Assembly (NCBI GenBank): GCA_040386775.1
Contig: JAZKEU010000008.1
Coordinates: 8,474 to 65,474 of the forward strand
Direction of reading: 5' to 3'
DNA from: Bdellovibrionota bacterium
Lineage (GTDB): Bacteria > Bdellovibrionota > Bdellovibrionia > Bdellovibrionales > JAEYZS01
Length of the DNA: 57,001 nucleotides
In this document: piece after piece, positions 26,578 to 30,222 of the stretch
Position numbering within the stretch: the stretch's first letter is position 1
Layout of the letters: every line of letters starts with the position of its first letter
Program-made: the position numbers and the translations under genes
The notes under the pieces: model-generated
The model's input: the letters and a program-made list of their open reading frames with translations, nothing else
What the model was told of the DNA's origin: nothing
Database searches by the model: none

Positions 26578-26583
26578 CCCTTC

Positions 26584-26644
26584 TGAATGTTTTACCCGCA
26601 GCAATCAAATGCTGCACATTGCATTCAAAAGCATAGTCATTTTA
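26584..26644 (+). repeat. Direct repeat copy 1 (26.6 kb)
   Basis: 34 nt (26584-26617) are identical to 27468-27501, and weaker similarity runs on to a shared TATTTTAAA-like end (26644 / 27530). It contains GCAGCA-N6-TGCTGC. This copy abuts the NADAR fragment and lies about 150 bp upstream of the DUF1566-like gene. The remaining 26645-26795 interval is AT-rich and holds that gene's GGGAGG ribosome site. Confidence 0.9.
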
Positions 26645-26795
26645 AAGTGCACAGTCTATTTAGTCTTCACAGTACATGTTGAGTAGAAGTTTTACTTTTA
26701 CAAAACAAGTCGTAGGGACAAATGTATCTTCCCTGATTAAGAGATACTAATTTATTAAAGACATAAACGTAAAAATTTATTCTTTGGGAGGTTTT

Positions 26796-27377
26796 ATGAA
26801 GACATTATCAATAAGAAATGCAGTTTTGGATACCATAGAGAAATTTGTAAAATGTGCTGTTTTTTTATTTTTCTTACTAACTATGAATGGACTTTCGTAT
26901 GCAAGCGAAAGATCTCCATGTGGTTTAAGCGGTACAGTGGATGAGAGAATCAGCGATTGTTCTAGTCAGTCTGATTTTCAAAAAGAAGGTTTTATTTTAG
27001 TTAGCAGAAAGCCTAGTTTGGGAGAGGTACGAAAAGAACTTTCTACTGGGCTTATTTGGAGTGATCGACTTCCAAGTAGATTTACTTATATTGAGTCCAC
27101 GACAGCCTGTAATGCTGATTCCCTTGCTGTTAATGGCTCAGTTGGTGTCGCAGGCATTACCGATATTACATGGAGGAGGCCAACTTGGGATGAATACATA
27201 GAAGCCGAGAAGAATGGTATTCGAAAGGCAATGCCAAACATGGTTGGAAAAGTTGCAGATGACAATTTGTTTTGGACGGAGGATTGGGGGCTATTCGATG
27301 GTAGACGCGGTGTTATTACCTTCATGTCATTAGACGCGCCTTTCTCTGTTCGATGTGTATCTGGATCAAATACTTAA
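26796..27377 (+). CDS. Secreted DUF1566/Lcl-like protein
   Basis: 193 aa, start set at the ATG at 26796 with GGGAGG four nt upstream (an ATG 12 nt earlier lies before that site). The N-terminus has a hydrophobic signal segment (about residues 22-38, ending SYASE). The mature part follows the DUF1566/Lcl pattern: TGLIWSDRLPS, then a Cys in TTACNAD, TWRRPTWDEYIEAEKNGI, LFWTEDWG and SVRCVSG at the end. Such domains occur in surface or secreted proteins, often with adhesion-like roles. It sits between the two repeat copies, upstream of a TIGR02147 regulator. Confidence 0.75.
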   Translation: MKTLSIRNAVLDTIEKFVKCAVFLFFLLTMNGLSYASERSPCGLSGTVDERISDCSSQSDFQKEGFILVSRKPSLGEVRKELSTGLIWSDRLPSRFTYIESTTACNADSLAVNGSVGVAGITDITWRRPTWDEYIEAEKNGIRKAMPNMVGKVADDNLFWTEDWGLFDGRRGVITFMSLDAPFSVRCVSGSNT

Positions 27378-27467
27378 TCAATCAGCGCTTATAACTTGTA
27401 TTGATCACATGCCTATCCCAGAGAGGGATAGGATCTTTCTTCAATCTCAAGTGCCTAGCGATATTTT

Positions 27468-27530
27468 TGAATGTTTTACCCGCAGCAATCAAATGCTGCA
27501 CTTTGCAGCAAAAAATGTGGTTATTTTAAA
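27468..27530 (+). repeat. Direct repeat copy 2, at regulator 5' region
   Basis: Same 34-nt block as 26584-26617. Here the arm pattern is fuller: GCAGCA, TGCTGC and again GCAGCA, separated by 6 and about 5 nt, so alternative hairpins or paired operator half-sites are possible. It ends 24 nt before the ATG of the TIGR02147 gene. Confidence 0.9.
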
Positions 27531-27553
27531 ATATTTTGTATATAAGCCTCCTC

Positions 27554-28369: not shown

Positions 28370-29569
28370 ATGAAGAAATATTTTTTAAGTGCGCTGAGTG
28401 TGATGGCGATATTGTCACAAGCTCATGCTGGAGCTGAGGGCAAAGGAGGAAGCTTTCCTTATTATGAATCAAATGTGTATAAGATCATTAAATCTAGTCA
28501 GGCTGCTTTATTGGAAAAACTTAATAAATGGGACGAAGAATCTTTTTCAAAGGTAATAAATCAAGAATTTGCTCATCCTATTTCTCTAAAAGAGTTAAAA
28601 GGTATTATCTCACATTTGCAATTAAAACCTGCGGAAACTGGAACAGCTATAAATCCTTATGGTATCGAAGAGCCCTTAGCTATGCATTACGGTGTCGATT
28701 CTAAGGGGCAAAAATATATTGTAGCTTACGGCAGGCTTTTTGATTTTATAAATTATGAATGCAAAGTAGAAATTAAACACAACTCTATTGCAAATGAAAT
28801 AGAAGTTGGTTCATGTTACAAGTTGGAGCTTAAATTACTGCACGAAGCTTTGCACCATTTTGGATACGAAGAAGACCAAGCTCAAGCGAATAAATATAAA
28901 ATGCTTGAACTGATTGATATTGGTTTTAATATTTTGGAAGAAACTACCCACATAAAGTCTAAAAGCCTTCTGTATAAAGAAGCTAGCGAACAAATTATCC
29001 AGTGGGCATTCGAAGGAAAAACTTTTAATAAAGTTGTAACTTTGCAAGCAATTGATTCAAACAGTCCTGACTCAACATCCTCTAATAAATACTGGGGAAT
29101 AACGTTGGATTTAAGAACGCCACGCAATAATTTATCGGAATTAATATTAGATAGAAAGACTTATGGCTCTTTCTATTATGACCAGTCATTTTTCTTAACA
29201 TCGAGGCGCCAAAATTACGACATCCATGCAGAGACGATGCCATCTGAATTTAAATTAAGCTATGAAGATAAAGATAAAATTGAATATAGATCATCAGTGT
29301 TGAGTTCGGAATCAAAGGGACGCGTGACATTTAGTGAGAACAAATTAAAATTATCAGCTAATAAATATATTCATGTGTCTGAAGAAGGTAAAACTTTCGA
29401 TAACACTCCATTTGAGAGCCTAGAGTCTCATTTAATCATATCAAAATTACCGCTTGGTCGGGAAATACATATTGATTTAATGGATAGAGTGGTATTTAGG
29501 GGGGCAAAAATAAAAATGGCATCTAGTAAACCTCCTACTCAATTAGTAATGTCTATCCATATTCCTTAA
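28370..29569 (+). CDS. Secreted HExxHxxG protein, candidate metalloprotease
   Basis: 399 aa with a signal peptide (MKKYFLSALSVMAILSQAHA, cleavage near residue 20). ELKLLHEALHHFGYEEDQA at 153-171 contains His158-Glu159-x-x-His162 followed by Gly165 and acidic residues at 167-169, like the zinc site of gluzincin or metzincin-type proteases. Residues 180-399 are predicted mainly beta and resemble no family I know. GGAGAAG precedes the ATG. It is 12 nt after the TIGR02147 regulator and convergent with the NADAR gene (overlap of 4 nt). Protease activity is inferred from the motif only. Confidence 0.75.
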   Translation: MKKYFLSALSVMAILSQAHAGAEGKGGSFPYYESNVYKIIKSSQAALLEKLNKWDEESFSKVINQEFAHPISLKELKGIISHLQLKPAETGTAINPYGIEEPLAMHYGVDSKGQKYIVAYGRLFDFINYECKVEIKHNSIANEIEVGSCYKLELKLLHEALHHFGYEEDQAQANKYKMLELIDIGFNILEETTHIKSKSLLYKEASEQIIQWAFEGKTFNKVVTLQAIDSNSPDSTSSNKYWGITLDLRTPRNNLSELILDRKTYGSFYYDQSFFLTSRRQNYDIHAETMPSEFKLSYEDKDKIEYRSSVLSSESKGRVTFSENKLKLSANKYIHVSEEGKTFDNTPFESLESHLIISKLPLGREIHIDLMDRVVFRGAKIKMASSKPPTQLVMSIHIP

Positions 29570-30222
29570 GGCAAAGCCAAAATTTCATCTCTCAAAAGCA
29601 TCCAGATATCATAGTATCTGTATGCGGGTGGGGGATTGTCTTCTGTTTTGTGATCTGGCAAAAGATCTAAGCCTTTTGTTTTTAAAAGTAGATTTCTAAC
29701 TTCAGGGTTTTGCTCCATCTTTGCTTTTAGAGCTTTGACGATGATCTCATAGTGAAGATTTTGATCCTTACCTTTGTATTCGATTCTTTGACCACTATAA
29801 GTAATCCAGGAGATATTTAATTTTTTAAGATTACTGTTAGCAATTTTTCCGGCGTTTTTGGCGTTCTCACCGACCATTTGTGAAACTTGTTTGCGCGTGT
29901 AGGGCCATTCCACTCTTGGGTCATTTCTTGGATCAGAAGAGTCTTCGAGATTTTCTGGGTACTTCATCATTTGCCAGAAACCTTCAACGCTGGCGTAGTT
30001 CTTAGAATCCAAGGTGAATGCTGTATCTGCAAAGTTTGAAAATAGGCCAAGTTCATTTCGCTTAGAAAGTATGACTTTCTTTTCTTCGCAAGATACGGAC
30101 TGCGGAAGAATTTCCCAGTCCTTTGTATCTTGAGTCACAGGCTTCCACCATTCCTTTGGGTAAGGGCAGATGTTTTCTGATGATATTGCCAATGCAAGAG
30201 TGAGCGTGAGAAGCCAAGCCAT
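29566..30222 (-). CDS. Exported NADAR (YbiA-like) domain protein
   Basis: 218 aa. A short signal-like hydrophobic start (MAWLLTLTLALAISSENI) precedes a NADAR domain at about 52-180: NELGLFSNFADTAFTLDSKNYASVEGFWQMMKYPE is the diagnostic block (LG.FSNF and the S.E...Q..K pattern), and ITYSGQRIEYKGKDQ the second. NADAR enzymes hydrolyse N-glycosidic bonds, e.g. in ADP-ribose adducts or riboflavin intermediates (YbiA), and normally work in the cytoplasm. Export is therefore unusual. It lies 9 nt after the next secreted protein gene. A fragment of a second copy lies at 26488-26577. Confidence 0.82.
   Translation of the reverse strand: MAWLLTLTLALAISSENICPYPKEWWKPVTQDTKDWEILPQSVSCEEKKVILSKRNELGLFSNFADTAFTLDSKNYASVEGFWQMMKYPENLEDSSDPRNDPRVEWPYTRKQVSQMVGENAKNAGKIANSNLKKLNISWITYSGQRIEYKGKDQNLHYEIIVKALKAKMEQNPEVRNLLLKTKGLDLLPDHKTEDNPPPAYRYYDIWMLLRDEILALP

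Follow-up and report, generated by a model that had tools for sequence, protein, structure and literature searches.

The window, a stretch of 57,001 nt from the genome of a Bdellovibrionota bacterium, contains a gene for a 193-aa protein, a gene for a TIGR02147 regulator and a gene for a 399-aa glycine-rich protein; one copy of a direct repeat lies upstream of each of the first two (Table 1). Next to the regulator lie genes for ScpB, for exported proteins and for a NADAR-like protein. The regulator was matched by the NCBIfam model TIGR02147 (Fsuc_second) with 116.3 bits at a cut-off of 50 and by PF14394 with 147.4 bits at a cut-off of 30. The first-pass annotation had called the 193-aa protein DUF1566-like; neither Pfam nor NCBIfam gave any match to the protein, and hence no support for this label, even at E-values up to 10, and its sole ground is the sequence TGLIW ... 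WRRPT, which we take to resemble a DUF1566 motif. Weak homologs of this protein were found in 7 of 139 other genomes, and the TIGR02147 signature was absent from the three such loci inspected (L392, L393, and L396). A terminator-like hairpin separates the 193-aa gene from repeat copy 2.

Downstream of the regulator, the 399-aa protein begins with a signal-peptide-like sequence and gave no Pfam or NCBIfam match even at E 10. It contains the sequence HEALHHFG, a zinc-protease-like HExxH motif, which is present in 15 of 108 ORFs encoding downstream partners of TIGR02147 regulators. On the minus strand, positions 29566-30222 encode a protein whose N-terminus is hydrophobic and which matches NADAR/riboflavin-intermediate N-glycosidase below threshold; an exported NADAR-like protein would be unusual.

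Table 1. Position of genes, repeat copies and putative regulatory elements in the window.
Feature	Position	Strand	Description or basis
34-mer, copy 1	26584..26617	+	sequence comparison
Putative operator, copy 1	26598..26626	+	GCAGCA 26598-26603, TGCTGC 26610-26615, degenerate GCATTC 26621-26626
Inferred promoter, copy 1	26634..26662	+	-35-like TAGTCA 26634-26639, 17 nt, -10-like TATTTA 26657-26662
193-aa protein gene	26796..27377	+	signal-peptide-like N-terminus, SD GGGAGG
Terminator-like hairpin	27412..27432	+	8-bp stem, z -2.66
34-mer, copy 2	27468..27501	+	sequence comparison
Putative operator, copy 2	27482..27510	+	GCAGCA 27482-27487, TGCTGC 27494-27499, GCAGCA 27505-27510
Inferred promoter, copy 2	27518..27546	+	-35-like TGGTTA 27518-27523, 17 nt, -10-like TATAAG 27541-27546, 7 nt, ATG
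TIGR02147 regulator, 267 aa	27554..28357	+	XRE-type HTH, C-terminal winged-helix-like DUF4423
Exported Gly-rich partner, 399 aa	28370..29569	+	HExxH motif, downstream cassette member

The two repeat copies are identical over 34 nt, and weaker similarity extends to 66 nt with 85% identity (26581-26646 and 27465-27530). As had been noticed in the first-pass annotation, one copy stands upstream of the 193-aa gene and the other just before the regulator gene, both hold GCAGCA-N6-TGCTGC, and copy 2 has a third GCAGCA. This motif occurs twice in the window as compared to zero times in 100 dinucleotide shuffles. The arms of copy 2 are separated by 6 nt and then by 5 nt (ACTTT), and the operator ends 43 nt before the start codon of the regulator gene; the third arm of copy 1 matches GCAGCA at three of six bases. 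In copy 1 only, TGAATG before the arms is able to pair with CATTCA behind them, which would extend the dyad to a longer, nested one (26584-26628). The source genome (2,859,376 bases) was searched for further copies. It contains exactly two GCAGCA-N6-TGCTGC sites, no additional GCAGCA/TGCTGC site was found when spacers of 3-13 nt were allowed, and a query of 91 bases around copy 1 yielded copy 2 as the only match with a convincing E-value. A third site enlarging the regulon was not found in this genome with exact arms.

The source genome encodes 31 TIGR02147 proteins above the cut-off and two weaker ones, and the upstream regions of all 33 genes were read. Most paralogs with the same HTH type are preceded by one layout, in which an arm A and its inverted form are separated by a spacer and A recurs after a further 5 nt, mostly ACTTT or ACATT; the last arm ends about 43 nt ahead of the start codon. 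The spelling of the arms differs between paralogs, examples being GTTTAC, GAGGAC, GTGGAC, GGTGCA, and GATCTA; a single operator spelling for all TIGR02147 genes was rejected for this reason. A strict set, which also underlies the covariation analysis and the rules described below, was limited to sites with their end 39-48 nt from the chosen start codon; it included 13 operators of the source genome with 13 different arms; outside this set, the arm GGTGCA is common to two paralogs (C13:73631 and C17:182940).

The layout was scanned with a fixed 5-nt spacer upstream of TIGR02147 genes encoding the HTH signature YS[LMIQ]R. A score of ≥16 was reached by 44 of 122 genes (18 of 25 in the source genome, 26 of 97 in others), by 19 of 573 control ORFs and by 5 of 605 dinucleotide-shuffled upstream regions. 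At least five of the 19 control matches (L088, L106, L128, L170, and L183) are operators of exported-protein genes located beside TIGR02147 genes, and two more (L098 and L179) are the operator of the regulator itself viewed from another start. If a gene offered more than one start codon, that with the best site was used, for training loci from other genomes and for test loci alike; the most frequent distance from operator to ATG is 43 nt. The enrichment is large, though a high-scoring operator was missing from the standard place in the majority of the family genes tested (78 of the 122 YS[LMIQ]R genes and 73 of 107 genes fetched later). Related loci were sought with an alignment of seven sequences; homologs of the window regulator are present in 125 of 140 genomes of the order.

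The source genome also has another TIGR02147 clade, which differs in its HTH (C7:45818, C8:134928, C17:91090, C3:76761, C18:99250, C12:134203, and C17:158722), and no convincing three-armed site was found upstream of these seven genes. For two of them, C8:134928 and C12:134203, the next gene encodes an exported protein whose signal peptide is followed by GGG. In Bdellovibrio bacteriovorus kdesi (L126, NZ_CP102930.1), GTTTCA-N5-TGAAAC-ACT-GTTTAC is found upstream of 2501 with a second spacer of 3 nt instead of 5 nt; the same is seen at L061 and L078, and these sites possibly form an operator sub-type.

Covariation between arms and HTH was analyzed for 66 operators, 47 of them representatives sharing less than 50% identity; four operators with an arm not starting in G were excluded. 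Mutual information peaked at HTH residues 46, 47, 48, 49, and 52. The strongest link was found between residue 47 and arm base 2 (Z 13.1), followed by residue 46 and base 4 (Z 10.6), residues 46, 48, and 52 and base 3 (Z about 7) and residue 49 and base 6 (Z 6.4), those for bases 4 and 6 being drawn from all data and not a blind result; none of the remaining 23 HTH columns exceeded Z 4. Among 1,929 pairs with less than 40% identity, the agreement at base 2 was 0.98 when residue 47 was the same and 0.32 otherwise. An AF2 model of the regulator (mean pLDDT 89.4) has residues 47-55 in a helix (pLDDT block means 97 and 94), and residues 46-49 and 52 are predicted to mark the start of this recognition helix. 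Residues 47, 48, and 52 presumably correspond to the base-contacting residues Q28, Q29, and Q33 of the 434 repressor.

Rules were drawn from 36 operators and fixed before further genes were fetched. The test sets consisted only of regions in which the HTH signature plus an upstream region was found: test 1 comprised 39 new genes of 60 regions (two duplicates, 19 without match), test 2 comprised 26 genes (L252-L330), and test 3 comprised 42 genes of 60 regions. By the rule for residue 47, H is paired with G at arm base 2, Q with A, S with C, and P, A or V with T. It was correct in 31 of 32 operators fetched later (permutation mean 13.6, p 5e-5), namely in 10/10, mostly T (p 0.10), 9/9 (p 0.0016), and 12/13 (p 0.0019) in the consecutive tests. 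After removal of relatives more than 50% identical to the training set or to each other, 18 of 19 predictions were correct as compared to 13 for a constant guess of T, and so were six of the seven predictions other than T. S47 was paired with T, not with C, at L175 and L344. The rule for position 3 was correct in 25 of 34 cases overall (p 1.5e-4) and in only 8 of 14 in test 3; those for position 4 (4/11) and position 6 (6/9) failed the blind test, performing no better than permutation. In the window regulator, S47 fits the C at arm base 2, and a relative with 62-64% identity has P47 and a T at this base (GTAGCA). Half-site bases track residues of the recognition helix, strongly for residue 47 and partially for the others.

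A distinct second cognate site was detected for 8 of 66 operator-bearing regulators (L113, L212, L221, L222, L275, L357, L380, and L382) within a few kb around each regulator. Distinct second copies were told by eye from double readings of the opposite strand (e.g. L056, L064, L254, L336, and L373), and scans with foreign arms gave two sites in 453. The pair in the window is absent from this list because the third arm of copy 1 falls below the threshold. The sites at L106, L088, L128, L170, and L183 were added, and the region downstream of all 13 second-copy sites was inspected. Ten sites (L088, L106, L128, L170, L183, L212, L221, L222, L275, and L357) precede, at a distance of 63-89 nt, a gene for a signal-peptide-like protein of 111-198 aa; no such exported ORF follows the second site at L380 and L382, and the site at L113 lies near the record end. 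L106 has the same order of elements as the window, with one operator before the gene for a small exported protein and another before the TIGR02147 gene, which in turn precedes the gene for an exported Gly-rich protein. At L170, one site is located between divergent genes, and at L128 and L183 the site was found only before the exported-protein gene. Hence, the operator is not always situated at the regulator. In the source genome, all 24 regulators of this HTH type directly precede a Gly-rich protein with a signal peptide; in total, such a partner follows 81 of 119 regulators as compared to 11 of 485 control ORFs, with signal peptides called by a crude hydrophobicity rule.

Downstream of arm 3, the operators have in common an A-rich stretch followed by T (0.82), T (0.58), and G (0.77) at +8 to +10, and the end of a -10-like element is found most often 6-9 nt before the ATG. 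The window promoters were placed by this common register; a strict sigma-70 consensus scan returned no promoter at either place. About 7 nt separate the last arm from the inferred -35 box downstream of it. From the position of these elements, we infer a leaderless regulator mRNA starting at the ATG. With this start, the dyad of arms 2 and 3 would have its centre at about -52, immediately ahead of -35 and in a position typical for activators, which suggests autogenous activation.

The first-pass annotation had offered the repeat either as an operator of the regulator or as the scar of an insertion or duplication. The former is strongly supported in silico by the layout, the arm-helix covariation and the predictions of the frozen rules. 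As far as can be judged from sequence, the repeat is very probably a three-armed operator serving the TIGR02147 regulator whose gene directly follows copy 2. We infer that the XRE-type HTH binds the arms GCAGCA/TGCTGC; arms 2 and 3 with their fixed 5-nt spacer would form the invariant dyad, most likely for one dimer, and arm 1 at variable distance would serve as an additional half-site. Through copy 2, the regulator would act on the leaderless promoter of its own gene and so govern the cassette of regulator plus exported protein. Copy 1 would place the upstream gene for the exported 193-aa protein, a putative second target, under the same regulator. The most likely sign is positive, with the regulator activating its own gene from a site immediately ahead of a weak -35 box, and the middle arm, being shared, would permit a self-limiting switch. 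About two dozen such cassettes in the source genome, most of them with a spelling of their own, would then constitute a largely insulated set.

The same operator may also act with opposite sign, the regulator repressing both promoters, its own and the one of the 193-aa gene, in a HigA-like manner. HigA antitoxins are the nearest solved relatives of the HTH by sequence (2icp, E 5.6e-7), and simple autoregulation by XRE proteins is often repression; however, the arms end before the inferred -35 and do not lie over -35/-10, and the -35 boxes of the window are weak (TGGTTA and TAGTCA), as would suit an activator. Repression therefore appears possible, if doubtful. Another account assigns the identity of both copies mainly to recent ancestry, a promoter-operator segment having been copied between units. 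Identity between the copies also covers the N6 spacer and 14 nt ahead of arm 1, more than the generic layout demands; thus, the promoter segment was probably duplicated. By contrast, the spacers differ between the two copies at other regulators (such as L106 and L113). The nearest relative L112, whose regulator is about 62-64% identical (L312 looks like the same locus), has a single operator and no 193-aa-type gene, but its neighbourhood is not syntenic, and no direction of change can therefore be assigned. Moreover, ancestry leaves the three-arm layout at a fixed distance and the arm-helix covariation unexplained. Duplication is compatible with an operator and not an alternative to it; that recent ancestry mainly accounts for the identity falls only somewhat short of an even chance.

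The alternating arms could also form mutually exclusive hairpins in a leader transcript, as arms 1 and 2 and arms 2 and 3 are able to pair, and the RNA fold of copy 1 beats its shuffles (z -3.24). Yet the fold of copy 2 is unremarkable (z -1.15), the arms lie upstream of the inferred start at the ATG, and RNA pairing does not predict that arm bases track recognition-helix residues. An RNA attenuator as the main reading was rejected on the inferred start and the fold scores, and we consider an RNA switch very unlikely. A direct repeat flanking a gene may further point to a generic mobile or dispersed repeat; such an element is hardly conceivable here, since the repeat was seen only twice in the 2.86-Mb genome with no copies at unrelated sites, and the layout recurs before paralogs in different letters.

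The regulator and its proposed three-armed operator resemble restriction-modification controller (C) proteins and their C-boxes in the XRE-type HTH and the inverted half-sites before the own gene; a leaderless transcript, if real, would be a further shared trait. The C-box arms of C.Csp231I are given as CTAAG-n5-CTTAG, with a 5-nt spacer as here, and Esp1396I is described to have a second C-box before another gene (PMC4824078); for the PvuII controller, activator-repressor autoregulation is described (PMC3695507). C.Esp1396I and C.BclI were among the structural matches of the regulator's N-terminal domain; Foldseek with the regulator model gave no match below E 0.001, and VIA-align Z values of about 7-8 show only the common XRE and winged-helix folds. 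In contrast to the small single-domain controllers linked to restriction-modification, the window regulator is a two-domain protein of 267 aa, its putative operator has three half-sites instead of the two complete dyads OL and OR, its partners are exported proteins, and dozens of paralogs with different arms exist per genome. HigA antitoxins, which autoregulate at inverted repeats, gave the best HTH sequence match among solved structures; unlike HigA, the regulator has an extra C-terminal winged-helix-like domain, and none of six genes scanned in the window matched a HigB toxin. No relevant article on base contacts made by HigA was found in the literature searched.

Camas et al. (2010, PMC2978694) made use of autoregulation in the LacI family to connect a small number of HTH residues with bases of the operator; that code concerns a different HTH family, and the operator proposed here is three-armed. 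A recognition code has also been reported for MerR (PMC5045206), and IclR has been the subject of a co-evolution study (PMC8222616). In the literature searched, TIGR02147 did not appear at all, and DUF4423 appeared only as a table row on Bd3700 in PMC12546842. The search, which covered few subscription journals, found no operator for the TIGR02147 family, and a search of the Bdellovibrio literature for leaderless transcripts, operators and paralogs found nothing on such operators. TIGR02147/DUF4423 itself is not new; this analysis adds to it the cassette together with a probable operator and part of a recognition code.

Regulators with TIGR02147/DUF4423 occur in large numbers in this order yet are nearly absent from the literature searched. 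The family gains a putative target site and a partial residue-to-base code which predicts sites in genes outside its training, and the repeated cassette ties each regulator to exported proteins. If confirmed, these cassettes would supply regulator-operator pairs that form a natural and largely orthogonal set, as well as a means of asking when these bacteria deploy each exported protein. A wider view, which at present we regard as rather unlikely, is that genomes of the order (Bdellovibrio, Bacteriovorax, and kin) each carry up to two dozen self-addressed, insulated and possibly bistable activator switches. In each switch, an activator would be joined by a three-armed operator and an exported Gly-rich protein of its own, and often by another small exported protein; a recognition code spanning some five residues would keep the switches insulated, and bistability could arise from positive feedback together with the shared middle arm. 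If this is true, populations would vary their exported proteins combinatorially.
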